This document shows positions 17,630 through 47,227 of a stretch of DNA of 63,099 nt, one piece after another; position 1 is the stretch's first letter; each line of letters opens with the position of its first letter. The notes under the pieces were generated by a model that did not search any database, was not told the origin of the DNA, and worked only from the letters and a program-made list of their open reading frames with translations. Source of the DNA: Nitrospirales bacterium (GTDB lineage: Bacteria; Nitrospirota; Nitrospiria; Nitrospirales; UBA8639). Where the stretch lies: contig BQIV01000028.1 in the NCBI GenBank assembly GCA_021604005.1, forward strand, positions 1 to 63,099, read 5' to 3'. The translations under genes and the position numbers were made by a program.

Positions 17630-17967
17630 TATCGCACCACATCCACGACAATCAGCCCTGGGTCATCTTGATGCACTTCGTTTTGCACGCGGAACACCGT
17701 GTCTTGGTGATCCCAGCGATTATCTTTGAGGTGCACCTGGTCCTTGCCGTACTGTGGGACCTCGACGCCATGGACCGCGTGTCGGACGATATGGACACGC
17801 CTGACACTTTTCGCGCTATTGGCGTCAAACCCAAAATCCAGCTCTGGCGGATTCCGCTCGATGAGTACATGAATTTTTCGAGGAGGTAATTTGTCTGGAC
17901 AGTACCAAATCTCTTCATAGTCGAGCGCTTCAATCATCGATTTCGCATCTGCCGTATAGTCAATCAT
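17629..17967 (-). CDS. Head-tail connector region protein (112 aa)
   Basis: This acidic-to-neutral 112-residue protein begins MIDYTADAKSMIEALDYEEI and has a beta-rich body (RKIHVLIERNPPELDFGF, QDTVFRVQNEVHQDDPGLI). It shares one base with the downstream gp10-like gene and overlaps the upstream gene by four bases (ATGA at 17964-17967). In similar phages this slot holds a head-tail joining protein. No family was recognised with confidence. Confidence 0.6.
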   Translation of the reverse strand: MIDYTADAKSMIEALDYEEIWYCPDKLPPRKIHVLIERNPPELDFGFDANSAKSVRRVHIVRHAVHGVEVPQYGKDQVHLKDNRWDHQDTVFRVQNEVHQDDPGLIVVDVVR

Positions 17968-18347
17968 GTCCCCTCTTTCACGAGATTCCGAATGACAAAA
18001 TCCACATCAAACACCAGGCGGCCACCACCAGAGTTATACAGCACGACAAATTCAGCCCGATGCGTTTCGTAAGACGATTGCTGGTCTAGAATGGTGGTAT
18101 CTTCAGGCTGCAAGGTCCATCGGAACAAGGCGAATTCATCCAACGTCGCATGATTGGCGTTGAGCATATTTTGTGAATTTCGGTTATTCACAATAGCCCC
18201 GGACGCCGTATCAAAGAAAGTCGCTTCGATGGAATCCACGTCACTCAATGTGATGAGATTACCAAGCGGATCTTTCAGCACGGCGAAGAAATCAGCCGTG
18301 CTTCTCTCGTTGATCACTTTATTAAATCTTTTAGGAAATCGGCTCAT
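17964..18347 (-). CDS. Phage structural protein, unrecognised (127 aa)
   Basis: The start is placed at ATG 18347 (MSRFPKRFNKVINERSTADF), five bases after the preceding stop; the frame is open further upstream but only inside the previous gene. The body is beta-rich (FFAVLKDPLGNLITLSDVDS, RAEFVVLYNSGGGRLVFDVD). It lies in the head-tail joining segment, overlapping the next gene by four bases. It could be a connector adaptor; this is inferred from position. Confidence 0.6.
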   Translation of the reverse strand: MSRFPKRFNKVINERSTADFFAVLKDPLGNLITLSDVDSIEATFFDTASGAIVNNRNSQNMLNANHATLDEFALFRWTLQPEDTTILDQQSSYETHRAEFVVLYNSGGGRLVFDVDFVIRNLVKEGT

Positions 18348-18352
18348 ACAGG

Positions 18353-18754
18353 TTAATCCATGGTGACGGTATACGCCCCAATAGCAAACGAAATGGTCTC
18401 TGATGCGCCAACCGCTTTTGAGGCCGTCAACGCCCCATAGTCCAACATATTCCCATCGCTTGAGGCATCCATGATCGCGTAATGTGTGATCGTGCCCCAA
18501 CTTCCAGTTGATTGCGGGAAGGTCACGACCGACCCATTCGATTTTGACCCACCTGACGCGGCTGGAAAATTCGTGGCGTTATTCGTGACGGCCACACGCG
18601 CATAGGCATTGCCAGAAGGCTCGGTCAAACCAGACGCATCCTCTGTCGGGTTAGCTATCGATAGCGCAAAATAGACTGTGGCTGGTCGGGTAAAATCTCC
18701 ACCGCCAAACACATGATCCAGTAATTTATTCTCAAGGTAATTTGATGCTCCCAT
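18353..18754 (-). CDS. Gp80-like tail fibre/decoration protein
   Basis: The 133-residue protein closely follows the pattern of a common phage family often annotated as tail fibre or gp80-like: SNYLENKLLDHVFGGG at the N-terminus, a PATVYFALSIANPTEDASG strand pair, YARVAVTNNATNFPAASGG, then SWGTITHYAIMDAS and a closing ISFAIGAYTVTMD strand. The fold is expected to be a small beta-sandwich. It is placed between the giant spike gene and the head-tail genes; a role as a decoration or fibre-base protein is inferred. Confidence 0.78.
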   Translation of the reverse strand: MGASNYLENKLLDHVFGGGDFTRPATVYFALSIANPTEDASGLTEPSGNAYARVAVTNNATNFPAASGGSKSNGSVVTFPQSTGSWGTITHYAIMDASSDGNMLDYGALTASKAVGASETISFAIGAYTVTMD

Positions 18755-18768
18755 TCCAAAACCTCCGC

Positions 18769-21700
18769 TTATTGAGTGTGAGTAAACAACTTCATCGGTA
18801 TTTCCACGCCGACCAATTCCTCAGGTCTAAACGGCGTCAGGCGAACCGATGCGCCAGCCGATGACGAGACAGCCCATGTGCCCATCGCAACCAGTGGAAT
18901 ATTTCCATCAACCACCAATTGGCCCTGCATCATCCAAGACGAAAAAGCCTGAGCCATGCGCTCAACCGAGACAGTGGCTGAACCGTTCCACGACAAATCA
19001 GACCCCCCAGCCACATCTGTCAATTTCATCGCCTCAGCCATTGACAGCCACGACCAAGAGGCATCAGCCGAAATCGGCGAACCGCCTAACAGCGTAGCCT
19101 GGGAGCCAAGAGACCAAGACGAAGCAGACGACACTTGAACCTGAACCGACCCGTCTAAATTCCCAGATCTTGACAAGAACCAGTTCGAGTTGGATGTCAG
19201 CAATACACCCACTTGGTAGGACAAAGAGGAATCAGCCGACCACGTAGAAGACGACGAGACATTGAGGAACTTGTCAGCATCAGCCGTTGAGGCAAGAGTC
19301 CATGATCCGTTTGCAGCGATGTCGTTGCCAGCGAGTAATTGAGCCGAGCTATCCCAAGCCCAGTCAGAAGACACCTCAACTGGGACAGCAACACGAGCAA
19401 TTAATGAGCCATCCATCAGCCAAGCAGAAGAAGATTCTAGCGAGACTTCTTTTGCAAGAGAGCCAGACGAATCCAACGACCAGACAGAAGACCCAGCCAC
19501 CTGATTGCCAGCCAATAAACTTCCATCGCTCTCCAAGGACCATGCCGAAGCAGCCGACACTTGCGTTTCTTGACTTGATGAAACAGTTCCCGATCCAGCA
19601 AGTACCCATGAAGACGAAGAAGCCGCATCTTTCTCGATTTCAATCTCTGCTGTTGACGTGACCTCCCATGAGGAAGACGCGGAAACCGGAGAATCCCCAT
19701 TGACGGCAAGTTGAGAATCGATGGACCATATTGAGCCAGCTTCTATGGAAACGGCCTTGTGTATTTCCGCCGCAGAAGACAGCACCCAATCAGAAGAGGC
19801 CTCTAAATCATTCGCAAGGCCTGCCGAGGCCGTACCATTCAAAGCCCACGAAGATGCCGCATCAAGAGAGGCCAATATAGAAATGCTTGCCGTCGATTCA
19901 AATGACCATGACGCATCAGCCGAAGATGAAACGGGAACGCTGATAGATGCCGATGATTGCAGGACCCAGGACGATTGTTCGACAGCGAGAGAGACATCGA
20001 GATGCTCAGCGTCCACGGCATCGAATCGCAGCACCGTCCCCTGCTCTTGCAAGAGCATTCCCGTTGAGCCTGCCGTGATCTCAGAATCCGTGATTTCACC
20101 AGCGTACACGCCAGCATCAAATTCATACTCGATCAGATCCCCACGGACACGGAGCTTCATGGCGTAGTGCTGAGACTCATCAAATCGCTCGATCGTATGC
20201 TGTTGGAGAATAGTTGGCGTATCATTCACGCGTTTCTCGATACTCAATACCCCGTCACCACGGGCCAAAATCGAATAATAATTGCTGCCCGAACCCGTCG
20301 CAGGCCCACTCGCCCTCACGCAAATTCCGAACCGATCACTGCTCGTTGTTCCGTTTGTTCGGCCGAGAGCAGAGACCGCCTGATCATTCGATGGGTGCGT
20401 CTCACCGACGACAGCCATTCTCATTGGACCAGCGGGAACGCCAACAGAGCTATTCGTCGCATCAACAGTGAAATGTGCAACCTCGTCTCCACTCCATGCA
20501 TGCCCAGAATCAGATGTATGTGCAGCCAGCGACACATTGGACGACGAATAAAAATTGTCAACCGTGATAACATCGTCTGTCCAGGGGAACACCAAATTGA
20601 GTGGACGACGTGGAGAGAAATTCTCCTCAGTCAACTCAATCGGGTCAATCACCGCGTTATTGAATGTCAATTGATTCGGTTTGGCTGGGTTCCAGTACGA
20701 GCAATCCAACAGTTGATGGCCCGACCCTTGGAGGCTAAACGAAAACGCGACACCACCAGATAACGTGCTCTGGCCACTCGGCGTCGTCCTGCCCTGGAAA
20801 AAATCAAGTGATCCGTCAATACACCGGACACGTCGGAACGTGCAATTTGTCGCAATCCATCCCTGCGCAGCCCCATTCCCCCAGTCGGCGATATCAACAT
20901 CCTCTAACAACGCGTCAGATTCTCCCATTAAATGCTCATGTTGGACCCCGACCCCGCTTGGGGAATTCATCCCTCTCACCAGGCCTCGACGAGCGATACT
21001 GTTATTGCACCTAAAAAAATTTACACCATCTTCCGTCCAGGCAACATGACGATTATTGACAAGGGAAAAATCATGCAGGACGGGATTATCGCCCTGACTG
21101 AATTGAATGAGTTGCCCACGCGGAAACGGTCCTCGAACGTTATACCCCTCAATAAATGAAACCGTTGGGTTTGAGGTATTCAGGATATAGCATCCTGTCG
21201 AAGAATCATATGACCGAACTCTTCGAATCTGCACACCAGGACAATTTAAAATATCGATCCCGTTGGTATTTGAGTCAGGATTTTGTCCGGTTACAGGAGA
21301 ATTCGTGTGAATGGTTTCGATATCCTCGATCACTAGACCTGTCGATCCTGAACATTGTATCGCATCGCCTCCGCTATAATGGATTCGACACATACGCACG
21401 GTCACATTATCATGCGTTACGACAATGCCGTCCTGCCCTGATACCGTCACATCCAATCGCTCGATGATTTCCCCGTCCATGGTGGAGGCCACAGGGCCTG
21501 ACGGGGTGAGGAACGGAGTTGCATTATTACTCAACTGCGTGTTGACAAACCATTGCGTTTGAAGTTCTTCGTCCTTCTTAAATGGGGCATAGGGATCATG
21601 CTCAATGTCTATGACATTATCATCGGTTAACTCCATCGACCACAACCGAAAATCATGAATGCGCCCACGCCAATTTTGCGAACCGCTCCCTTCCCAGCCA

Positions 21701-22308
21701 CCGAGCCATAACCCCGAAAACGGCCCAGCGCCACCCGCGCTATGACTGAAGCCAAACGAGAATTTCCCATCAATATACACTCGATGCCGATTGACCCCGT
21801 TTGAGGTCAAGGCGAGGGTATGCTGTATGAAATTTTGGTTGCTGCCGCCCTCTCGGTGCGATCCGCCGACATCTCGCCAAAAAAGCCTGACCCCGCCGGA
21901 TTGCCCGTTGCTGCTGTTGGGGTATATCATCAAATCATCTGATCCGTTAAACCCCACCATGCAATACGATGATCCAATATCATAGGACATGTACGACACC
22001 GACAGGCTGAATGGTCCGGATGAGGGGAGGGTGTATAGCTCTGGATAGTCAAGATCAATATAATGCCCAACCGACACATGCCCCTCGAAAAACCTCGCAT
22101 GTCCCGTATCCACAATCGGCCATGATGCACGAGACCCACTCTCAAACGGGTCAACGATGACACCATGCCGACCATGTCCGGACACGTCATGTGCAGTAAG
22201 ACCATACCCCTCGTTCAATACCAGCCAGCATTCCAAATCACGCATCATCGGATGATTGTAATCAGGAATGCTGAGAACCCCTGGCTCAATAGTTTGGTGC
22301 ACGATCAT
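18769..22308 (-). CDS. Giant spike/adhesin: LamG-like, beta-helix and 20-residue Trp-repeat protein
   Basis: The 1179-residue protein has four regions. Residues 20-240 look like a LamG/concanavalin-type domain (LECWLVLNEGYGLTAHDVSG, RHRVYIDGKFSFGF). Residues about 260-560 form a right-handed beta-helix like phage tailspikes and polysaccharide lyases (GIDILNCPGVQIRRVRSYDS). Residues about 600-780 are a second jelly roll (YAMKLRVRGDLIEYEFDAG). The C-terminal 370 residues carry 19 Trp residues in a nearly invariant 20-residue repeat. No signal peptide is present. The start at 22308 overlaps the PL1-like gene by four bases. It is probably a virion spike that binds or degrades surface polysaccharide. 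Confidence 0.8.
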   Translation of the reverse strand: MIVHQTIEPGVLSIPDYNHPMMRDLECWLVLNEGYGLTAHDVSGHGRHGVIVDPFESGSRASWPIVDTGHARFFEGHVSVGHYIDLDYPELYTLPSSGPFSLSVSYMSYDIGSSYCMVGFNGSDDLMIYPNSSNGQSGGVRLFWRDVGGSHREGGSNQNFIQHTLALTSNGVNRHRVYIDGKFSFGFSHSAGGAGPFSGLWLGGWEGSGSQNWRGRIHDFRLWSMELTDDNVIDIEHDPYAPFKKDEELQTQWFVNTQLSNNATPFLTPSGPVASTMDGEIIERLDVTVSGQDGIVVTHDNVTVRMCRIHYSGGDAIQCSGSTGLVIEDIETIHTNSPVTGQNPDSNTNGIDILNCPGVQIRRVRSYDSSTGCYILNTSNPTVSFIEGYNVRGPFPRGQLIQFSQGDNPVLHDFSLVNNRHVAWTEDGVNFFRCNNSIARRGLVRGMNSPSGVGVQHEHLMGESDALLEDVDIADWGNGAAQGWIATNCTFRRVRCIDGSLDFFQGRTTPSGQSTLSGGVAFSFSLQGSGHQLLDCSYWNPAKPNQLTFNNAVIDPIELTEENFSPRRPLNLVFPWTDDVITVDNFYSSSNVSLAAHTSDSGHAWSGDEVAHFTVDATNSSVGVPAGPMRMAVVGETHPSNDQAVSALGRTNGTTSSDRFGICVRASGPATGSGSNYYSILARGDGVLSIEKRVNDTPTILQQHTIERFDESQHYAMKLRVRGDLIEYEFDAGVYAGEITDSEITAGSTGMLLQEQGTVLRFDAVDAEHLDVSLAVEQSSWVLQSSASISVPVSSSADASWSFESTASISILASLDAASSWALNGTASAGLANDLEASSDWVLSSAAEIHKAVSIEAGSIWSIDSQLAVNGDSPVSASSSWEVTSTAEIEIEKDAASSSSWVLAGSGTVSSSQETQVSAASAWSLESDGSLLAGNQVAGSSVWSLDSSGSLAKEVSLESSSAWLMDGSLIARVAVPVEVSSDWAWDSSAQLLAGNDIAANGSWTLASTADADKFLNVSSSSTWSADSSLSYQVGVLLTSNSNWFLSRSGNLDGSVQVQVSSASSWSLGSQATLLGGSPISADASWSWLSMAEAMKLTDVAGGSDLSWNGSATVSVERMAQAFSSWMMQGQLVVDGNIPLVAMGTWAVSSSAGASVRLTPFRPEELVGVEIPMKLFTHTQ
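18860..19990 (-). repeat. Coding tandem repeat: 19 Trp units at 20-residue spacing
   Basis: In the C-terminal part of the spike protein, Trp recurs with intervals of 20 residues in 14 of 18 cases (the others are 22, 22, 22 and 18). The unit reads roughly S-S-x-W-x-L-x-S-x-A-x-L followed by a polar turn and a Val-x-Ala segment. At DNA level the unit is 60 bp but diverged, so it is a protein repeat rather than a recent DNA expansion. A beta-solenoid or a string of small beta modules is likely. Confidence 0.85.
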
Positions 22309-23990
22309 GCTGAGGCATCCACTCCATTTTTCCGCACGGTCATATCGGCGCTCGTTAAGGCTGCCGATGAGCCATCCATAATGACGCCAACCCGAAACTC
22401 ATACTCATTAAACATTTTAAATGAGATGGTCTGTGGGCCTGGGAGTGAGGCTGGTGGAGCCACCCTGAATTGCCTCGGCAGCGTCTCCCATCGCTGCGTA
22501 TCTCGCGCATTCGTATAGATGGACACAATGGCATCATCCGTTGCGCCTGTCGGGAATTGCAGATGCACCGTACACACGCAGGACTCCATGGGATTGAGTG
22601 ATTGGGTTGCAAAAAACTGCTCAGTTGAATCGTTGATTGCTGTGAGTTGCGTTAAATCGCTAGCGTTTGGCCAAGGCATGGTTCCCCCTCCAGACTGATA
22701 ATCACCAGATGGAATCGTATCTCCGGCTAATTCATTTTGATAATTTTCCAGGTGTGTATATCCAGAGGCTGCCAACACCTGGGCATGGTTCACGCCAACA
22801 GGCAGCCCATGGGATAATTTCCAGGAGTCTGCTATCCCATCTCCTGACGTATCGAGCGGGAGGTTACCTCCGGTCAACGTCTGAAATCCCCCAACATCAC
22901 TCTCAGTGTCAATCCACCTCCCTGTTCCATTACTCACATCGGCAATAATTCTGGCGTCAATGACATCTCTAACAGGCTGAATGGCACCACAACTGCCGAG
23001 CACATCAACTTTGGCTTGGTCGGCATCACTCTCTGTCAATGATGGAGCCGCAATGCGTGTGGTGGTCACAGGAAAGTGTGGCGAGGATCCGCTCCTGTAG
23101 ATAATATCTTCCTCTGGGAATGTATCATTGGGCCTATGCGTCGCATGTCGATTGCCAAGCAAGAACACATTTGAGCTCAACGTGTCTGCGTCACCCCCTC
23201 GTAATCGAACAGCTCCACCTTTCCCATTATCGTCAAGGCCTGAAATGTAGTGATTTTTCACCACGTTTGTGTGAAGCACTCCACTACTAGCCCGAACATT
23301 ATGGGGCGACCCATAGTTGTAGACCACGTTATTGACGAAATCGATGCATGTGCCTGAGGTGGTGCTTGGATTTCTATCCGTGTGATGCGCGAGTAAACTA
23401 TGATGTATGGTCAAGTTTACACTGCTAGACCCAACCAGCATCCCCTTCCCATGCTGCCCTTCAGAGTGCGGCGGTGTGGGGTTCCTGAGAGATTCAGAGA
23501 CAATTGTCCATTGCACTGTGGCATTCAAATTATCGACATTAAAGAATGAGAGGGTCTCATCATTCCCCCAACTGAGCGAGCAGTGGTCAATGACTAGGTT
23601 ATTAATTGTGTTCCCTACCACCTGAATGGCATCCCGTGAATCAGGATTCACATTAGGGATGGTCCCTCCCTCTCCTGGCCGAATCCGTAGATGCCGTAAA
23701 ATGACATTACTACATTCAATGTTGATTTCCCCATGAATCACCACTCCATCCCCTGGCGCAGACGATCCATAAATCGTAATATCGTCAGTGTTGATTGTCA
23801 GCTTGGACAGTAAAAGGATTTCCCCACTGACACTGAACAAGACGGTTCTCGGTCCTGCCGCCGTGCAGGCCTCTCGGAAACTGCCCGCACCTGCATCGTT
23901 CAGATTCGTGACAAACAGGACAGAGCCTGCTCGTCCACCGGTGGTCGTGGTGCTGGCGAACCCCTGCGCTGAAGGAAAAGCTAGTGGCAT
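22305..23990 (-). CDS. PL1-like pectate-lyase-fold protein in the structural operon
   Basis: The N-terminus (AFPSAQGFASTTTTGGRAG and VLFVTNLNDAGAGSFREACT) matches the signature start of PL1-type secreted polysaccharide lyases, and the body is a right-handed beta-helix (ITIYGSSAPGDGVVIHGE, VIDHCSLSWGNDETLSFF, NLTIHHSLLAHHTDRNP). DTSGDGIADSWK near residue 385 resembles a calcium-binding dockerin or thrombospondin-like element. The C-terminal 120 residues form another beta domain. Unlike bacterial pectate lyases it lacks a signal peptide, consistent with a virion depolymerase. Which residues are catalytic cannot be decided by eye. It overlaps the next gene by four bases. Confidence 0.78.
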   Translation of the reverse strand: MPLAFPSAQGFASTTTTGGRAGSVLFVTNLNDAGAGSFREACTAAGPRTVLFSVSGEILLLSKLTINTDDITIYGSSAPGDGVVIHGEINIECSNVILRHLRIRPGEGGTIPNVNPDSRDAIQVVGNTINNLVIDHCSLSWGNDETLSFFNVDNLNATVQWTIVSESLRNPTPPHSEGQHGKGMLVGSSSVNLTIHHSLLAHHTDRNPSTTSGTCIDFVNNVVYNYGSPHNVRASSGVLHTNVVKNHYISGLDDNGKGGAVRLRGGDADTLSSNVFLLGNRHATHRPNDTFPEEDIIYRSGSSPHFPVTTTRIAAPSLTESDADQAKVDVLGSCGAIQPVRDVIDARIIADVSNGTGRWIDTESDVGGFQTLTGGNLPLDTSGDGIADSWKLSHGLPVGVNHAQVLAASGYTHLENYQNELAGDTIPSGDYQSGGGTMPWPNASDLTQLTAINDSTEQFFATQSLNPMESCVCTVHLQFPTGATDDAIVSIYTNARDTQRWETLPRQFRVAPPASLPGPQTISFKMFNEYEFRVGVIMDGSSAALTSADMTVRKNGVDASA

Positions 23991-37512: not shown

Positions 37513-38883
37513 TTATTGCAGCATAAACGTCTCATATTCCAACTTTTGCAGTTTTTTGTCCAAAAGATGCATTCCTAGAATGACCACGACAAGCAACGAG
37601 ACGGCAAAGCCATATCCATAATATGGAAGCCCCATGGAGAGGGACCAGGTTGTCAGAATAATATTGGCGGCGAGAAATAGGCTTGACAGTCCAAGCGCAA
37701 TCAGCCGTTTATCTAAATAAAACATGACGTTCAAGATGCCTAAGAAGAGAACCTGGAGGCCGGCCGCAACGATATCGACATACAGCAAGGATTCATATAA
37801 TTCTGAAATTTCCAGCCAACGTAAGATTGGCGGACCGATAGCCCAAATGAGCAAGGACACGACAAACTGAATCTTCATGATCTCAAAGAGACCAAGCCGA
37901 ATCGTCCGTACCATCTCGTTTTTGGCATGTTGAATATGATCGAGCGAGGCTCCCCCTCGAATGGCATCGTAAAATTCCTGATACCGTTCAACAAAGTCTG
38001 TCTCCATTCGAACGAGAAAGCTGGCCATGCCTGGCAGAATAGAGAGGTAGGCTAAGAAAATAGGCAGGTCATAGATTGGGGAGTTTCGAATCGGCCCGAT
38101 CACAAGCTGACTCGTCTCAGGATAATACCAGAATAAAAATTTGTCGATCCAGATCGCGAGATTATAGATCAACCCCAACACGATCAAACTGACGTACATT
38201 CTCCCTTTTTTCAAAAAATCCCATGCCAGTAAGGTCTCAGAAGAATAATTTCGAACGGTGAGGCCCAACATGCCGACAAAAATACTAAACTGTCCAATAA
38301 AAAACCCGAACAGCAATCCTTCTAATCCAAATGAACGCATGGCGAGAGCGGCCCCAATCGTTAGTCCATAGCCAAATCCATAGAGCAACAGAACGGCCTT
38401 ATACTCTTTCATACTGGAAAGAAAAATCGTCGCGATCCAGATGTTTCCTAAGACAACGAAACTGCCGATCATGAGTACCTTGTATACGACTGATTGTTCA
38501 GGAAAGAACCAGGCAATGACTCCTGTTGCAGAAATTCCACAGGCAACCGTGACCAGACACAACACGCCATGAAAATTACTCAGCACTAATTCGTCTTTTT
38601 GCTCATAGAGACGATCCGCGACATATCGTGTAAACGAGGTTTGTAAACATCCGGTCAATATCAGACTGAAGGCAATGAGGTAGGTGACCGATAGTTGGAA
38701 TTGAATAATCAGCGTCTCTGGAGCCACGACGGAGAGACTCATGACGCCGATCACTAAAATACCGATAATGGATAAAATCCACGGTCCGGAACTAATCACG
38801 CCGGCATAGGCATAGGCTTTCAGCAATGACCAGTAGCTGTCTTTTTTTAGGATTTTACGAAGCTCGAATCCAATGCCTGCCAT
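37513..38883 (-). CDS. pelG: PelG, inner-membrane Pel polysaccharide transporter
   Basis: The 456-residue polytopic protein has about 12 hydrophobic segments and begins MAGIGFELRKILKKDSYWSL, the characteristic PelG start. GPWILSIIGILVIGVMSLS and LPIFLAYLSILPGMASFLVR also fit. It has the same length as the well-studied PelG proteins. PelG is a MOP/Wzx-like transporter that works with PelD, PelE and PelF to synthesise and move Pel across the inner membrane. It is the last gene of the operon and overlaps pelF by 37 bases. Confidence 0.95.
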   Translation of the reverse strand: MAGIGFELRKILKKDSYWSLLKAYAYAGVISSGPWILSIIGILVIGVMSLSVVAPETLIIQFQLSVTYLIAFSLILTGCLQTSFTRYVADRLYEQKDELVLSNFHGVLCLVTVACGISATGVIAWFFPEQSVVYKVLMIGSFVVLGNIWIATIFLSSMKEYKAVLLLYGFGYGLTIGAALAMRSFGLEGLLFGFFIGQFSIFVGMLGLTVRNYSSETLLAWDFLKKGRMYVSLIVLGLIYNLAIWIDKFLFWYYPETSQLVIGPIRNSPIYDLPIFLAYLSILPGMASFLVRMETDFVERYQEFYDAIRGGASLDHIQHAKNEMVRTIRLGLFEIMKIQFVVSLLIWAIGPPILRWLEISELYESLLYVDIVAAGLQVLFLGILNVMFYLDKRLIALGLSSLFLAANIILTTWSLSMGLPYYGYGFAVSLLVVVILGMHLLDKKLQKLEYETFMLQ

Positions 38884-40397
38884 GAGTCAAATGCTTTCGT
38901 GTAGATTGATTGGTAGTGATCAATCATGTGTTGTTGCGTATAGAATGTTTCAACCCGTTCAATGCCGGCTTGTTGTGCGGCATACCAACGCTGCTCATTT
39001 GCCAATAAATTCAGGGCCGCTTCCGCTAAGGCTGTCGGGTTTGCCATATTGACGACTGCCCCGGCAGATCCTGCCAGGTCTTCGGTTATCCCCTCCCCTT
39101 CAATCAATTGACGACACGCGCCAACGTCGGTCGTCACTGCGGGAACGCCCGCGGCAAAACCTTCAAGTACCACGAGCGGAAGTGCTTCGCTAATTGAGCT
39201 GAGAATCAGAAGCCCGATTTTTGGGAGAATGTCATCGACTCTTTGAAACCCAAGAAACTTGACATGCTTGGAGAGCCCCAAGCTTTCGGTTAAATTCCGG
39301 CAATCCTGAACATATTCTTTGTCTTCATCTTCAGGCCCGGCTATCCAACCTTCTGCCGATGGCAAGCGGTTGACCACCGTTCGCATGGCTCGAATAAACG
39401 TTTTGACATCTTTAATGGGGACAACCCGTCCAATGAGACATAAGATCGGAGGCGGATGAATGGGCCGATGCGCACGCAATGTTCGAAAACGTTCGATCTG
39501 GATGCCGTTTGGTATGGTGAGCGTACGAGTGTCATCGGCGCCATCGGCTATTTGACGTTGCCGATTGACTTCATAGAGTGAAATGATGGGATTGGCCGCA
39601 TCATAGCAAAACGTCCCTAACGCTTCGAAAAATCTGATCCAGAGTTGCTGGAAATAGCCTAAAGGTTCTGACCGTTTTTCCAATGACGTTCGATTATCGG
39701 CAAACGATGACATTTGAAACAAATCAATGCGACGTTCTTTTGTATAAATGCCATGTTCCGAAAGAATGAGCGGATGCCCAGTACGTTGTTGCAACAAGGC
39801 ACCTAAAAATCCTGCATAGCCGGTTGACACCGTATGGTAAATTTTGGCTGGAATAAGACTGGCCGCAATTTTTCCTAACATCCAAATCGGTTCATGCATT
39901 TTCCGTACGGTCCAAAAATAATCGACGAATGACGGATCGGCGCAATGCGTGCGGTAGGCGTCGCAGAGATACGTCCACGCTGTTTCACTGTACAAAAATT
40001 GCTCTTGAAGCCGTTGCGGGTTTTCCGTCAACATCGTCATCATCTTCTGCGTCAACGCCATTCCTTCCGGACATGTTTCGGGAGCTCGCATGCCGTCGTG
40101 TACGTCTTCGATAAATTGAAACAGTTTTCGGTCGCCTTCTATGGATTCAATGGCTGGGTGTCCATGGTTGGCATGGACAAAATGGCATTCGAGGTGAACC
40201 ACTTGAGGAGGCAGTTCATAGCGCATCCCATCGTACTCCTCCGGCTGTCCTCCAATGAACACAAGACCAAATTGATATTCAGGAAAGGCATGAATAATTT
40301 GGTGGACCCAGCTTGACACGCCACCACTCACGTAGGGATAGGTCCCTTCTAACAGCAGGGCAATATCAACCTCTTCGGCCTGTGGGAGCGTCACCAT
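38847..40397 (-). CDS. pelF: PelF, cytosolic Pel glycosyltransferase (GT4)
   Basis: From ATG 40397 (GAGG six bases upstream) the protein has 516 residues; a start at 40427 lacks a ribosome binding site. N-terminal DIALLLEGTYPYVSGGVSSW is the PelF signature. The nucleotide-sugar domain has CLIGRVVPIKDVKTFIRAM and the EX7E motif ISEALPLVVLEGFAAG, typical of retaining GT4 enzymes. PelF polymerises the sugar chain from UDP-activated HexNAc and associates with the PelDEG membrane complex. Confidence 0.96.
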   Translation of the reverse strand: MVTLPQAEEVDIALLLEGTYPYVSGGVSSWVHQIIHAFPEYQFGLVFIGGQPEEYDGMRYELPPQVVHLECHFVHANHGHPAIESIEGDRKLFQFIEDVHDGMRAPETCPEGMALTQKMMTMLTENPQRLQEQFLYSETAWTYLCDAYRTHCADPSFVDYFWTVRKMHEPIWMLGKIAASLIPAKIYHTVSTGYAGFLGALLQQRTGHPLILSEHGIYTKERRIDLFQMSSFADNRTSLEKRSEPLGYFQQLWIRFFEALGTFCYDAANPIISLYEVNRQRQIADGADDTRTLTIPNGIQIERFRTLRAHRPIHPPPILCLIGRVVPIKDVKTFIRAMRTVVNRLPSAEGWIAGPEDEDKEYVQDCRNLTESLGLSKHVKFLGFQRVDDILPKIGLLILSSISEALPLVVLEGFAAGVPAVTTDVGACRQLIEGEGITEDLAGSAGAVVNMANPTALAEAALNLLANEQRWYAAQQAGIERVETFYTQQHMIDHYQSIYTKAFDSWQALDSSFVKS

Positions 40398-40512
40398 GTT
40401 GAGCCTCGCTGCTGCTCGATGTCGCATCGGAAAACAGAACAGACGGATGTTGAGTGTCGAGCTTCCCTTGCCTGTGTATCGTTAGAATAATGCAGAATGA
40501 TTTCCTTAATAT

Positions 40513-41538
40513 TTATGATGATGCATAGTCCCGCACGAGACGTTTTTCAACATTCCAATATTTCAAAATTGGATGTAACAGTGAAATTTGTGATAGTTCG
40601 TGGCTATGCGCAAAGAGGTTCGAAAGTTTTGAATAGTCCTTTTGAAAAAAAGCCAATTCGGCGAGATAGGGAATGACTCGTGTTTCAGGAATTCCATGTT
40701 CGAGCGCTTTGGTGAATGCGTCCCGGGCGCGTTCGCGTTCTTGAGCGCGAAGGGCCAATTGTCCTTTCAGGGCCCACATGCCTGCATCATCCGAACAGGC
40801 TGCCAGTACGATCTCGTTGTATAGAGAGGCTTGGGACAAGGCATAGGTCAAAATATCACCTTCGACAATATCCTTATACGCCAGTTCCCAATAGGCATAG
40901 GCTAATTGACGAGCATGTGTCAGTTTCTCGGATGTTTCTCCGGCTTGTTGATACCTCTCGAGCTCCTGATTGATTGTTCCATTAATCGATTTTTCTTTTG
41001 TATCTAAAATGCCAAAGGCTACAAGTCGAATGTCATCGGTTTGATCCTGTAAGGCTTGCCGGACAGTCGTGTGTATGTGCTGAGATTCGAAGCTTTGCAG
41101 TTTTCCCAGTGCATCTAATCGTGTTTCCGTGAGTAGCCCAGAAGCTTGAAAGCGTGACTGTAAATCTCCTCTTCCATACTGCAGCATGTCTACGAGTCCT
41201 GTCTCAGCAAACTTGGAGTCTTGGACTTCTTGAATGTTCCCCTTCGTTTCCTGGACAACTCCATAATTCGTCATGACGACGAGTGCCATAACTCCGAATG
41301 CGCCCAGTATAGGAATAAATAATGTCAGGGCCGTCAAAAATAACACGACAGTAGAAGGCGGATGGCGATAGTGAGCGGGAAGACTATCTGTACCCAGTAA
41401 CCCTACCGCTACACTGACCAGGACATGCAGAAGGAAGAGTCCCATCGAATCGTCTTGGTAGCGATTCGTAAACAGGAGATAGGGCAGCGCACCACCTTCA
41501 AGCAACGCCGCTAAGCAGAGGAATATTTTGGCGATCAT
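40513..41538 (-). CDS. pelE: PelE, membrane and TPR component of the Pel synthase complex
   Basis: The 341-residue protein has two N-terminal membrane hairpin segments (residues 1-60: IFLCLAALLEGGALPYLLF and VSVAVGLLGTD) and a third at about 65-90. A helical TPR-like domain follows (YAYWELAYKDIVEGDILTYA, WALKGQLALRAQERERARDA). This layout and length match PelE, which bridges PelD and PelF in the inner-membrane synthase complex. Its start overlaps the end of pelD by 41 bases, and an 85-base gap separates it from pelF. Confidence 0.9.
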   Translation of the reverse strand: MIAKIFLCLAALLEGGALPYLLFTNRYQDDSMGLFLLHVLVSVAVGLLGTDSLPAHYRHPPSTVVLFLTALTLFIPILGAFGVMALVVMTNYGVVQETKGNIQEVQDSKFAETGLVDMLQYGRGDLQSRFQASGLLTETRLDALGKLQSFESQHIHTTVRQALQDQTDDIRLVAFGILDTKEKSINGTINQELERYQQAGETSEKLTHARQLAYAYWELAYKDIVEGDILTYALSQASLYNEIVLAACSDDAGMWALKGQLALRAQERERARDAFTKALEHGIPETRVIPYLAELAFFQKDYSKLSNLFAHSHELSQISLLHPILKYWNVEKRLVRDYASS

Positions 41539-42847
41539 AGTTCCCTACGACAAGATCTTGGACAATTGTGGAAGGATCATGTTCATAAAGTCCTCGAACA
41601 CTCACGTGAATGTCGGCTTCTTGAAACCCCTTTCCAAACCGTTCCCTGAGTAATTGTTGAATTCGTAGAAGGTAGCCTTCGATGGCCCCATCATCGGTGA
41701 ATGGGAGCAGGATGCAGAGTCGACGGCTGTCATCATGACGGATATCCCACGTCACATCTAATCCACGAGTGTGATGAAGAATATGAAACACGATTTCTTC
41801 ACGCATCGATGGTGCGTTCACGTCAAAGACCACCACTCGGCTATCAAGTCCCAATTCATATTGCAATCGAACTAAGCGAGGTAATTCTCGAGCAAATGGT
41901 ACTGGACATTCGGGAAATTGTTCGATAATCGGACGTGCAAGCACGGCGGCCTGCACACCATCGGCAAAATAATGTAAAAAGATCTTCAACATATGCAGAC
42001 TGTCTTGATGAAGATTGAGAAAGCGCATGCGTTCCACGACAAACCATCCAACAATCTGGCCGTTGCTTGCCATGGCCGGTGCGACAATTAAATAGTGGGA
42101 GTTTACGGCAGATACCGATTGAGGCATCATGACATGGGAAAACTCTTTCGTGGTACGCGCATGGTGGATCAAGGGATCACTGTTTTGCAGGGAATCCATT
42201 GAACCCACTGCGGCCAATGGCGTTTCAACACGGTGCGGCGGAATGTCACGGTAGAATGCGGCGACTTCTAATTGAAAGAATTGCGTGAGTAATTCAAGGA
42301 ATCGTTCGGCGGCAGCTGTGGGAATTTCATCGTGTTCATCGATGAGCATTCCCCGCAGTCGTTTTAACGCATCACGAAGGGTAAGCGGTTGACTGATTAA
42401 ATGTTCCTCTAAGCTGTGATGGGACATGCCGAGTAAATGATATGCACGTGCCGTTTCTTGTAAGCGTTGATCAAGATAATCGTTTCGCTCTTCAATTTGT
42501 TTGAAATACATGTTCCATCGACTTCCAAACTCACCACAGATTGCGATACACAACACTCCGCCGATCACGTAGGCTTTCGGAACAGCCACCCCACTCAACA
42601 GGCCGAATTGTACCTCAAGAAACAGACTGCTCAGGATGATTCCGACAGAGAGCAGCCCCGCCCAGGTTCCATACCGTAACCCCAATAGGAGGGATACAAT
42701 CCATAACCAGGGGAATGCCATATTCGTCAAAAATGGATCCTCAGGCACCATCCAATGGCTGAGTCCCATAATCACACCCGTCAGGACGCAGGTTTCCACC
42801 CACTGCCAGCGTTGTGGAACGCCTCGTAAGTGGATGGGCAATCGCAT
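41498..42847 (-). CDS. pelD: PelD, c-di-GMP receptor of the Pel synthase
   Basis: The 449-residue protein has about four N-terminal membrane helices (residues 15-105), a short coiled coil (EERNDYLDQRLQETARAY), a GAF domain (residues about 170-310) and a degenerate GGDEF domain. In the latter the catalytic GGDEF is lost (DSRRL in its place), but HTRGLDVTWDIRHDD keeps an RxxD motif (RGLD), and an Arg lies 34 residues later, as in the known c-di-GMP site of PelD. Binding of c-di-GMP is thought to switch on Pel synthesis. Its ATG overlaps the pelC stop (TAATG). Confidence 0.94.
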   Translation of the reverse strand: MRLPIHLRGVPQRWQWVETCVLTGVIMGLSHWMVPEDPFLTNMAFPWLWIVSLLLGLRYGTWAGLLSVGIILSSLFLEVQFGLLSGVAVPKAYVIGGVLCIAICGEFGSRWNMYFKQIEERNDYLDQRLQETARAYHLLGMSHHSLEEHLISQPLTLRDALKRLRGMLIDEHDEIPTAAAERFLELLTQFFQLEVAAFYRDIPPHRVETPLAAVGSMDSLQNSDPLIHHARTTKEFSHVMMPQSVSAVNSHYLIVAPAMASNGQIVGWFVVERMRFLNLHQDSLHMLKIFLHYFADGVQAAVLARPIIEQFPECPVPFARELPRLVRLQYELGLDSRVVVFDVNAPSMREEIVFHILHHTRGLDVTWDIRHDDSRRLCILLPFTDDGAIEGYLLRIQQLLRERFGKGFQEADIHVSVRGLYEHDPSTIVQDLVVGNYDRQNIPLLSGVA

Positions 42848-43377
42848 TAGGATACACTCACTTCTTCGAGCAGACGTTTAATCAGTTTTTGTGCGACGGC
42901 GCTTACGGCTTCACGGCTCCATCCCGTTTGTCCTCCAACGGCACTCCACACCACGTGATTCGTCTGTAAGTCAAGAATTCGTAAACTGACTCCAACGGCT
43001 GGTTCCCCGTCGATTCCGACTTTATACCGCCACTCGTCTACAGTCCCGGTTATGGCATAGCGGGCTTTTTCCTCCTTCGCCCAGTGTAACGCCGACTCGT
43101 ATAATGTATTGTCGGATCCGAGTATGAATGAGCCGTCTTGCAGGGCCGATGGATAGCGTCGTATTTGAGTCATGCCCTGGCTGTAGAGCAAGGATTCGGT
43201 AATAGCCTCAGCGCGACGACCGGCTTGCGGCGTTTCGGTGTGATTGACGATTGGAAGCAAGACCCAGGGGGCATGCGCGTCAAGCATCGGATCTCGTGAA
43301 TAATCAATGACCGTACACCCATGAGTCATCACGGTGAGTAGGCCTATGGCGAACACCATCCAGGAAAGTTTTTTCAT
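42847..43377 (-). CDS. pelC: PelC, outer-membrane lipoprotein of the Pel export channel
   Basis: MKKLSWMVFAIGLLTVMTHG then Cys forms a lipoprotein signal with lipobox MTHGC. The mature 156-residue part contains WVLLPIVNHTETPQAGRRAE, ARYAITGTVDEWRYKVGID and VSLRILDLQTNHVVWSAVGG, which match the PelC fold. PelC forms a 12-subunit ring under the PelB porin with a negatively charged funnel that guides the cationic polymer. Length agrees with known PelC. It lies between pelB and pelD. Confidence 0.93.
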   Translation of the reverse strand: MKKLSWMVFAIGLLTVMTHGCTVIDYSRDPMLDAHAPWVLLPIVNHTETPQAGRRAEAITESLLYSQGMTQIRRYPSALQDGSFILGSDNTLYESALHWAKEEKARYAITGTVDEWRYKVGIDGEPAVGVSLRILDLQTNHVVWSAVGGQTGWSREAVSAVAQKLIKRLLEEVSVS

Positions 43378-43393
43378 TGTGTCACCTATTCAT

Positions 43394-46300
43394 TTAAAAC
43401 CATCGTTGATAGTGGAGATTGACTTGCGTGATCGTGGCATTTTGTCCAAACCCTCCTTGTATGTAACTGCCAGAGAGCTGGATGTGATCTTGCCCAATTA
43501 ACCGACTGATAAGACCGGCTTCAACACTTTGTCCCAAACCCGTGGCACTGTTGTAATTCACCCCCAGTAACCCAAATGGCCGAATACCTTTGGTGTAGAG
43601 ATCACGGATGGAATCACCAAGGCTGATTTGTATGCCACCTTGTGAGAAATTTTGCGGCACAACTTGAAGAGGAGTCGGCACCTCGTCCGTATGGGGAATG
43701 AGTCTTGTGATACTGCCTGGCAGTGCATTCACGCGCCAATATCGTTGCACGGTTCCGACCACACGAATCGTTACGTCTGGGTAGTCTCGTCGAAGATGAT
43801 GGCCGATGACACCTTCAACTCCAAGCCCGCGACCAAGATTGTCACGCGATTGGCTGTAAAACCGCTGCACATCCATTTGAAGAGAGACAAATTGACGTTT
43901 GGAAACATAGTAGAGGCCTTGTCCTCTGATGAAGTCCTTCATGCCCCCGATCTGGAGCACGACGGAGTCATTGGCCTTTTGATTTCGTCCAATCGTGAGC
44001 GTTGAAGAGAGATGTTCATTCCAGATCTGCTCATAGTCCATTTGTTCACCAAAAACATGTGCGAGTGCATTTCGATGAAATCCGGTTAACCGAATCGTTC
44101 CTGCGGGCCATTGATAGGCCAATGATACGCCTAATTGACGATCAATTCGTGGGACTCCGGTTAATTCCTGGGAAGCGACGCTTTCTTGCCAGGCGACGGA
44201 GGCTTCAGGCCGAACTTCGATTCGTCCCAATTGAATGGCCATTGCCGTCTTAGATACATAGCTCGAAAGTGGATGCCGTTCTTCAAACATGACGTGCGAC
44301 GTTATGCGATCGGCGGCTGTCATGATGGCTTCTTGAAATTGAATATGCGTCGCGTCGCGGTCAGGGTGACGTGTCAATGAATTAAAGGCTAGTTCTTGAG
44401 CGATTGTCTTTCGGTCAAGCCTGTTTGCGGCTTCGATGTGATCAGAGATGGACAAATTATCTGTGTAGTCATGAGTAATGGCTTCTATCTCAACCCAATC
44501 ATTGTCTGCGAGCGCGATCGCAAGTTTTGCCCATCTCGGTTCACGAAGTTGTTGGGCATAGGCATTCCACAGCCACTGTTTAGCTGCATCGAAGGCTTCT
44601 TGAGACAGAAACCATGCTAATATGAGTTCTTTCATGACCGATGATGTCATGTGCGCTCTTGTATTTCGCAACAGGGTCAGAAGCGGGTCGCCGGGATCGT
44701 TCAGTTGTGTCAATGTTGCGAGGGCTTCAATGGTTTCGGCAGAGCGGATTTGAGTAGGGTGAGTGAGGAGAGATTGACGAATTTCAAGCCATGCATGTTG
44801 GCGAACAAGCCACGCTTGCCGGGTTTGAGATGATGCCTCAAGTGCTGCGGCATAGTTCAAGAGCCAAAGATAATCGTGTCGCCGAGTCTGGAGTTGTCGA
44901 ACAAAGTACGGTAGGGCTTGTGCGTGTCGATCGAGGACCACATAGGCCGCCGCGACGGGACCCCAGAGTCGTGCATCTGCTTCAATGCTGTCTTGCCACG
45001 TGTCGAGATAGAATGCTAACGCGGTTCGATGTTGTTGATCGACTAAAAACCATAACATGGCTTCTTTCGTCTCATTCGATTCCGGATTAATGTTCAGGGC
45101 ACGTTTATACGCTTGAAGGGCTTCAGCGTGTTTGCCGATCTTCCACATCACCTCAGCACGAATAATCCAATACCGTTCCAGATGCACAACGAGTTCTTCT
45201 TCCCAAGGTACAAGTCCTTCTAATGTTGATTGGACCTGATCGATCTGCCGCTCGTGTAATTGGAGATCTAAGGCCTGCATTAAAAACTTAGGGCTGTGAA
45301 ACGTCTTCCATCCCGCAAGACTCACGTCAATCGCTTCCAAAGGATTTGTGTAACGTAACAGCAGAATCAAGCGTTCCTGCGCTTCGATTGACAATTGTTG
45401 TCGTGCGCGTAATCGTTGGTAGGCTTCTTCAGCTTGTGGATCATCCTCGAGCATCCATGCGAGATGTCCAATGAATTTCCAATATTCGTCGTCATCATCT
45501 TTTGCATGTTGTTTCACATGCCTCAACATGTCATAGGCTTCCCGTACATGTCCTCGAGATGACAGGAGGCCCGCTTGCTGTGTTGCCCAGGTCACTCGTG
45601 AGCCGTACTGTGTTTCGAGCTCTCGATAATACCGATAGGCTTTTGTGTTTTGGCCCATTCGTTGATACAAATGGGCTATATGTTCGAGAAAGGCTTGATT
45701 GGGATTTCGTTGGTGAAGATGCGTCAAATAGGCCACGGCTTCATCGGGCTTGCCAAGCCGTTCGAATGCGTCTGCCAATGTTCGCCATTCCGACTCTGAT
45801 AAGGTACGAATTTTCCCCAAACCCAAAAGGGCAAATACGAGATTTTCATCATCATAGGCTCCTGGGGCCAATCGCAGAATCTGTTCAAATGGCTCTTGAT
45901 TGGGTTTCATTTCCGCAATCTTTCTCCATTGCGCGAGTGCGATCTGTTGGCGGCCTGTCCACTCAGCGACTTGCGCATATTTTTTTCGCCACGTTACGAG
46001 ATGCGGAGCCTGTTGAACCGCAGCCTGTGCTAATTGAAAGGCATCCTCTAAATTCTGGTTTTCCAAAAATACCGCATACCCAAGTTGATACATCTGATCA
46101 TGAAACGTTCGGAATTTCGATTGATGTTTCGACTGAGCGATTGGGGTGGCACGACGTTGAGCCGCGACAGTCAGGGAGTGAAAGGTTTCATGGCGTGAGG
46201 ACAGTGTTCTGAAATATTCATCATCGACAATTTCGGTGAGTGTTGGGGCCAAAAAAAATGTCCGCGTATGCGTTGGTGCTTCACGCACTGCATTCACTGG

Positions 46301-47227
46301 AAGATATCGGAACGCGTTCTTCGTCCACGTCACTTGCAGTAAATCCTTTACGTATTTTTGTGCGAAATGTCCATCGCCAGCCGCACGTCCAAGTGACACG
46401 AGAAATATGAGTGTGGTTTCATCGTACTGTATATCACTCACATGTCGTTTCGCTTGTTCAATTGCCTGTTTGAGGAGGTTGCCGGATTGTAATGCCTTGA
46501 GTGCTGCTACATAATAGCCACGTTTCTCCTGTTGATTGTTGACTCCATGCTGTGCGGAAAAGTACAAGGTTGCGGCCTTTTGGTAGGCTCCTTGCCCGAG
46601 TGCTAATTTTGCGGCCTTGGCATACCACTGTACGGTTTGCGGTACCGGTCGTTTTGCGAGTTGTTCATAAATCGATTGCGCTAAGCCTTGCTCTCCAATC
46701 ATCAAGGCCAACTGAGCGAATTGGTCGAGGCGTTCAACATCAAAGTCCTGGGCTGTATGTACAAGCAGTTGAATACGCTGTTCGATTTGTTGTATTCCGT
46801 CCCGACGTGCTGACGAGTCTGCCGGGAAGGCAAATGTACGGGTTGTGAGCATATGTAAATCTATTTCATGTGCGTTCAGCCGAACATGTACATTCTCACT
46901 CGTGAGTAGTGGTGCTATGGTTTTTTGAGCATGTTCCATGTGGCCAATGGCAAATTGGTGTTGAGCCAGCAAGAGACGAAGGTCGGTATCCTCAGGTTTA
47001 GATTTCAGTAGATTTTCAAGGAAAAATGTACTGACCGACGACGCGTGGCTGGCCTGTGCGACTTGATTGATGATCCGTTGCTTCGGAAACAACACCATCA
47101 GCACTAACACGATGCCAATCGCAAACAAAGAGATGGACCAGAGTGAGAACAAGCGTTCTCTGGTTTGACGATCCGAGCGTCTAAGAACATGTGAAGCTGA
47201 TGGGTTTTTCACGTTGTTGTGTGACAA
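43394..47227 (-). CDS. pelB: PelB, TPR scaffold and outer-membrane porin for Pel export
   Basis: The 1277-residue protein has an N-terminal membrane anchor (SLWSISLFAIGIVLVLMVLF, about residues 29-48), then many TPR units (for example LAQHQFAIGHMEHAQKTIA, EALQAYKRALNINPESNET), and a C-terminal 16-stranded-type beta-barrel from about residue 960 ending in QVNLHYQRWF with terminal Phe. PelB periplasmic TPRs bind PelA, and the barrel exports the polymer. The frame start is a TTG at 47227 overlapping pelA by 47 bases; GTG 47212 is an alternative. It is somewhat longer than pseudomonad PelB. Confidence 0.94.
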   Translation of the reverse strand: MSHNNVKNPSASHVLRRSDRQTRERLFSLWSISLFAIGIVLVLMVLFPKQRIINQVAQASHASSVSTFFLENLLKSKPEDTDLRLLLAQHQFAIGHMEHAQKTIAPLLTSENVHVRLNAHEIDLHMLTTRTFAFPADSSARRDGIQQIEQRIQLLVHTAQDFDVERLDQFAQLALMIGEQGLAQSIYEQLAKRPVPQTVQWYAKAAKLALGQGAYQKAATLYFSAQHGVNNQQEKRGYYVAALKALQSGNLLKQAIEQAKRHVSDIQYDETTLIFLVSLGRAAGDGHFAQKYVKDLLQVTWTKNAFRYLPVNAVREAPTHTRTFFLAPTLTEIVDDEYFRTLSSRHETFHSLTVAAQRRATPIAQSKHQSKFRTFHDQMYQLGYAVFLENQNLEDAFQLAQAAVQQAPHLVTWRKKYAQVAEWTGRQQIALAQWRKIAEMKPNQEPFEQILRLAPGAYDDENLVFALLGLGKIRTLSESEWRTLADAFERLGKPDEAVAYLTHLHQRNPNQAFLEHIAHLYQRMGQNTKAYRYYRELETQYGSRVTWATQQAGLLSSRGHVREAYDMLRHVKQHAKDDDDEYWKFIGHLAWMLEDDPQAEEAYQRLRARQQLSIEAQERLILLLRYTNPLEAIDVSLAGWKTFHSPKFLMQALDLQLHERQIDQVQSTLEGLVPWEEELVVHLERYWIIRAEVMWKIGKHAEALQAYKRALNINPESNETKEAMLWFLVDQQHRTALAFYLDTWQDSIEADARLWGPVAAAYVVLDRHAQALPYFVRQLQTRRHDYLWLLNYAAALEASSQTRQAWLVRQHAWLEIRQSLLTHPTQIRSAETIEALATLTQLNDPGDPLLTLLRNTRAHMTSSVMKELILAWFLSQEAFDAAKQWLWNAYAQQLREPRWAKLAIALADNDWVEIEAITHDYTDNLSISDHIEAANRLDRKTIAQELAFNSLTRHPDRDATHIQFQEAIMTAADRITSHVMFEERHPLSSYVSKTAMAIQLGRIEVRPEASVAWQESVASQELTGVPRIDRQLGVSLAYQWPAGTIRLTGFHRNALAHVFGEQMDYEQIWNEHLSSTLTIGRNQKANDSVVLQIGGMKDFIRGQGLYYVSKRQFVSLQMDVQRFYSQSRDNLGRGLGVEGVIGHHLRRDYPDVTIRVVGTVQRYWRVNALPGSITRLIPHTDEVPTPLQVVPQNFSQGGIQISLGDSIRDLYTKGIRPFGLLGVNYNSATGLGQSVEAGLISRLIGQDHIQLSGSYIQGGFGQNATITQVNLHYQRWF

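Follow-up and report, generated by a model that had tools for sequence, protein, structure and literature searches.

Gene content of the prophage region

The window (the whole stretch of DNA that was analysed, 63 099 nucleotides) belongs to a host genome of 4.7 Mb in 92 contigs and contains a tailed-phage structural region at about 4.7–32.8 kb on the minus strand. This region encodes the small and large terminase subunits, head–tail joining, portal and tape measure proteins and a lambda J-type tail protein, together with a major head protein that has protease-type matches. The gene for the repeat protein P0001 (1179 aa; ORF 18769–22308, minus strand) sits between the head genes and the tail genes. 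Directly upstream is the gene for a pectate-lyase-like protein of 561 aa (22305–23990, minus strand; PF00544, E 6e-6; phrog_27797, E 3e-51), whilst the gene adjoining the other end of P0001, here considered its partner gene, encodes a Gp80-family protein of 133 aa (18353–18754, minus strand; PF23140, E 1.9e-43; phrog_240; PDB 8jou chain a, E 2e-11). A third gene (17964–18500, minus strand) completes an order that was also found elsewhere.

Pel exopolysaccharide genes of the host (PelG, a PelF-type glycosyltransferase, PelD, PelB and a PelA-type gene) occupy positions 37513–49973 and adjoin the prophage, which itself encodes LamG, β-helix and pectate-lyase-like structural proteins. At positions 1–165 of the window a 12-bp tandem array codes for (DGSG)n in a minus-strand ORF that is cut by the contig end, and the assembly break at this end probably falls within that repeat.

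Three regions had been proposed to precede the repeats of P0001 in a sequence-only reading of the DNA, and two of these were recovered as family matches. The N-terminal LamG/concanavalin-like region (21574–22308, minus strand) matched PF13385 at residues 151–232 (E 2.6e-6), with 28.1 bits against a cut-off of 27.6, and it passed this cut-off only when residues 1–245 were scanned separately. The predicted right-handed β-helix (residues 294–435; 21004–21429, minus strand) was a solid match to PF13229, above cut-off with an E value of 7.2e-9. No family match was obtained for residues 560–780 (19969–20631, minus strand), which had been read as a jelly-roll. The chain ends, after the repeats, in a C-terminal tail of 25 residues (18769–18846, minus strand).

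A 20-residue repeat in P0001

The repeats comprise 19 Trp-centred units of 20 residues at 18847–19998 on the minus strand (residues about 771–1155), an extent slightly wider than the 18860–19990 originally given. There are 21 Trp residues within residues 781–1145 (window 19968–18876), of which 19 form a series with one Trp per unit; two, Trp 985 and Trp 1087, lie outside this series as additional W-x-W partners. The steps along the series are, in order, six of 20, one of 22, six of 20, then 22, 20, 22, 18 and 20, so that 14 of the 18 steps are exactly 20 residues, as had been noticed for most of them, and the other four are 22, 22, 22 and 18. Residue autocorrelation of the repeat region gave z scores above 3 only at lag 20 (z 7.4) and lag 40 (z 6.3). 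The periodicity was not confined to Trp: with Trp omitted, the information in the alignment columns amounted to 23.0 bits, compared with 12.4 ± 0.6 bits in shuffled sequences (maximum 14.6, n=1000). The Trp is in strict register in 18 of the 19 units, being displaced by two positions in unit 17. The unit had been described as S-S-x-W-x-L-x-S-x-A-x-L; a repeat of this kind is indeed present, although its consensus is closer to V-x-A-x-S-x-W-x-L-x-S-x-A-x-[LAIV].

Between positions −6 and +8 relative to the Trp, hydrophobic residues were found at 103 of 152 even positions, compared with 32 of 133 odd positions (p 9e-14), and charged residues showed the opposite distribution (2 of 152 even and 23 of 133 odd positions; p 9e-7). 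This alternation is the pattern predicted for a β-strand with one buried face, and it counts against disorder. Ser and Ala together make up 38% of the region. The units have diverged considerably, with mean identities of 23% for amino acids (outside Trp) and 39% for DNA. The DNA copies are thus too diverged for a tandem-repeat call, and Tandem Repeats Finder, run over the window, reported no DNA array at the P0001 repeats. The sequence-only reading had not recognised the repeat from any named family, and Pfam, PHROGs and NCBIfam gave no match to this region.

Relatives of the repeat

When P0001 was used as query against 147 related genomes, a single weak match (E 1e-3) was obtained outside its own genome. 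This protein, P0004 of genome G027, has 361 residues and contains Tyr-centred 20-residue units, 14 of them with the motif YSL; the gene of this type is found in the record of Nitrospirae bacterium SZUA-215, which suggests that the window host, being of the same family as G027, falls within that phylum. A second Tyr-centred protein, P0006, was found on IMG/VR contig L005 (407 residues, 16 YSL units), and a search with an artificial consensus built from the units of P0001 led to L012 in genome G015, a protein of 661 residues with Leu/Ile-centred 20-residue units. Two of these relatives, P0004 and L012, come from prophages of the same bacterial family as the window host. Neither P0004 nor P0006 was found to possess the LamG or β-helix part seen in P0001.

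The Trp-, Tyr- and Leu/Ile-types were aligned in phase by MAFFT, with gaps consisting only of whole 20-residue units, and Trp-type and Tyr-type units compared in phase scored above all 300 of 300 column-permuted nulls. An alignment of overlapping three-unit blocks slipped out of phase and was excluded, and a messy full-length alignment of five proteins was not relied on. Comparison of repeat number between related phages, which the sequence-only reading had proposed, showed that P0004 lacks exactly 40 residues of P0006 near the N terminus, the further length difference being one residue within the array; the 40-residue gap indicates that length changes by whole units.

Phage records gave no match to P0001 by tblastn at 1e-5, and scans of viral contigs with P0001, L012 and the Trp consensus found no relatives. 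Matches of P0004 to phage genes annotated as ‘pentapeptide repeat’ (H2–H6) were discarded as a periodicity artefact, as they were antisense to the gene in H2–H5, the regions that were read. For the Tyr-type proteins, DUF5873 and the other weak hits in Pfam fell below cut-off. Another candidate with repeats of 20–21 residues (L019) was left out owing to its ambiguous gene frame. Two further proteins with repeats of approximately 21 residues, L020:883–2643 and L022:3938–5032, have a C-terminal domain in common, and that of L020 begins with a LamG-like region.

Pairing with Gp80-family genes

The Gp80 family (PF23140) is named in its Pfam description after ‘fiber I’ of podophage GP4, and the clear homologue of this gp80 protein in the window is the product of the gene adjoining P0001, i.e. 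the partner rather than the repeat protein. The order repeat protein, Gp80, third gene is common to the window and L005, where the third gene encodes 125 aa and is 39% identical to that of the window. In the Mu-like prophage of G015 a phrog_240 gene directly follows the repeat gene L012.

Thirteen further Gp80 loci, five from related genomes and eight from phage records, were picked blind to repeats. An ORF with a best period of 20 (z>5) was found near Gp80 in eight of these (L048, L049, L050, L051, L054, L055, L057 and L059) and an ORF with a period of 21 in one (L058); neither period was detected near Gp80 in the remaining four (L052, L056, L060 and L061). Two separate loci combining Gp80 and a 20-residue repeat, L050 and L051, are present in one genome (G084). 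In four positive phage genomes, scanned whole or over their first 50 kb, and in the window, there was a single coding ORF with a best period of 20 (z>5), located either beside Gp80 or one gene removed from it; these four genomes had been selected as locally positive, and the unbiased figure is 8/13. An extra period-20 match in C72C1 proved to be an antisense frame of the same repeat gene. Annotated records, from phages of different hosts, refer to the Gp80-adjacent period-20 proteins as hypothetical, ‘serine-rich adhesin’ or ‘putative portal protein’. For Sinorhizobium phage phiM5, the annotation of the Gp80 homologue gp17 records its detection in the proteome of phage particles.

When a profile was searched at every possible shift, the phase of the window units emerged again in the Gp80-linked proteins P0006, L012, L048, L049 and L055 (p 0.002–0.03) and in phage Pan4_26 (p 0.017). 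No significant in-phase residue pattern was obtained for L050, L051, L054 and L057, which retain the period with a residue pattern that could not be aligned with the window units, and L059 reached only p 0.06. As five of the eight period-20 Gp80 loci therefore lacked a significant match to the window pattern, common descent is supported for part of the set only. The window itself combines a period of 20, an adjacent PF23140 gene and a pattern in phase with other members of the Gp80-linked group. P0004, P0006, L012, L048, L049 and the ‘serine-rich adhesin’ of phage MW202462 resemble P0001 in period, phase, buried-face pattern and a nearby Gp80/phrog_240 gene, but have Tyr, Leu/Ile or another residue in place of Trp.

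Comparison with choline-binding repeats

Choline-binding and other cell-wall-binding repeats (PF01473, PF19127; PDB 6jyx) also have a unit of 20 residues. In the PDB, P0006 matched choline-binding protein J (6jyx, E 2e-4) and, in their repeat parts, entries for large clostridial toxin B; in NCBIfam it matched choline-binding PspC (E 7e-7) and PspA (E 2e-4). The frame Y-x-L-x3-G-x-[IM] is common to this Tyr-type protein and the choline-binding units of CbpJ. In a phase test against choline-binding units, the score was equalled or exceeded by 4 of 300 nulls for the Tyr-type, compared with 116 of 300 for the Trp-type of the window, which is no better than chance. At the curated cut-offs, PF01473 and PF19127 gave no match in the repeat regions of the window, G027, G015 and L005. 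The aromatic residues W−8, W−1 and Y+1 of the choline-binding unit, numbered from the aligned Tyr, bind choline; at the positions corresponding to these residues of the CbpJ units the window has Val/Ser/Asn, Ser/Asp and Ser, respectively. The likeness thus appears to be a weak resemblance of the Tyr-type relative rather than membership of the family.

Structure prediction

AlphaFold2 (AF2) was run on seven units from the window, supplied together with four rows in phase, and on P0006. The first model was a low-confidence solenoid with two strands per unit (pLDDT 64, pTM 0.56), and P0006 was likewise predicted to have two strands in each unit (pLDDT 63, pTM 0.64). Foldseek searches of the PDB with both models returned nothing below E 1e-3, the best E value being about 0.3. 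The various β-solenoids with which VIA-align paired the models included the β-helical ice-binding protein 3p4g (Z scores of 11.3 and 18.3) as well as curli CsgA (8c50; Z 19.2, rmsd 9.5). The model of the window units has stacking comparable to that of these β-solenoids, at approximately 20 residues per coil, although it is of low confidence and no sequence relation to them was detected. These solenoid matches were taken as shape resemblance only, and the fact that choline-binding proteins were missing among them was not counted as evidence. AF2 is known to yield false β-solenoids on repeat sequences (PMC11795689).

Interpretation of the repeat

What was observed is the period, the amphipathic residue pattern, relatives that share the phase, variation in length by whole units among relatives, and the pairing with Gp80; the fold, virion location and function of the P0001 repeats are inferred as follows. 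The repeat is rather probably a β-structured, length-variable shaft of a virion fibre that works with the Gp80-type protein. Residues 771–1155 would form a β-structured rod in which each unit contributes a polar turn and a β-strand whose single buried face is V..A..S..W..L..S..A..L. The 19 units would stack as the shaft, their number setting its length. The virion fibre or appendage containing this shaft would bind or process a surface polysaccharide through its N-terminal LamG and β-helix regions, and the neighbouring Gp80-family protein would be its partner, probably the base on the virion. This explanation has to accommodate the modest pLDDT values of both models, given that AF2 over-predicts solenoids on repeats, as well as the four of 13 Gp80 loci with neither period and the four loci (L050, L051, L054 and L057) in which the residue pattern was not alignable.

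A different role had been suggested as one option for the array, namely a row of identical binding modules, possibly for a glycan. Each unit would then expose its Trp and act as a small module that binds a carbohydrate or ligand, and the array as a whole would bind a repetitive glycan multivalently, much as the 20-residue choline- and glucan-binding repeats do. The Trp found in 18 of the 19 units, the LamG and β-helix regions on the same chain and the matches of P0006 to 6jyx, PspC and PspA in a common frame are all consistent with this, but the Trp-type units compared with choline-binding units at chance level, were missed by PF01473 and PF19127 and have the other choline-unit aromatics replaced. 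Moreover, the key residue may be Trp, Tyr or Leu/Ile at one in-phase position, an exchange more in keeping with a hydrophobic core position than with a platform for glycan binding. This exchangeability, together with the diversity of the units (about 23% identical), speaks against a glycan-binding row, which appears unlikely. Less probable still, to the point of being improbable, is a flexible, disordered low-complexity linker with a periodicity left over from recent tandem duplication; the high Ser and Ala content would suit such a linker, but the copies are old, judged by their DNA identity, and yet have kept the Trp and the buried-face pattern, which indicates that the period is under selection.

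Two structural versions of the shaft were considered, and their likelihoods are contained in that of the shaft rather than added to it. A single-chain β-solenoid with parallel 20-residue coils, one of the two options named in the sequence-only reading, is a distinct possibility that falls short of being probable: both AF2 models have two strands per unit and VIA-align paired them with 3p4g and CsgA, but the models are of low confidence, Foldseek found no PDB match below E 0.001, the known bias of AF2 applies (PMC11795689) and one Trp would have to be buried in every coil. Somewhat doubtful, by comparison, is an intertwined or prism-like trimeric β-structure with the Trp near the three-fold axis, which would suit the period-2 buried face, unbroken over approximately 15 residues, as part of a long strand. 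Phage fibres are usually trimers, which also speaks for this arrangement.

The reading as a fibre shaft paired with Gp80 could tentatively be extended to a two-gene fibre cassette found across tailed phages of unrelated hosts. Such a cassette may consist of a Gp80-type base and a shaft in which a physical rule preserves the period of 20 residues, whilst the residues drift beyond recognition and the length is tuned by gain and loss of whole units. Phage fibres are difficult to annotate because their sequences diverge fast, and a conserved period together with a conserved neighbour provides a handle on fibre shafts where sequence searches fail. Whole-unit gain and loss as a mode of fibre-length evolution thereby becomes testable. 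The exchangeable key aromatic also suggests that an array resembling a ligand-binding repeat can instead represent core packing.
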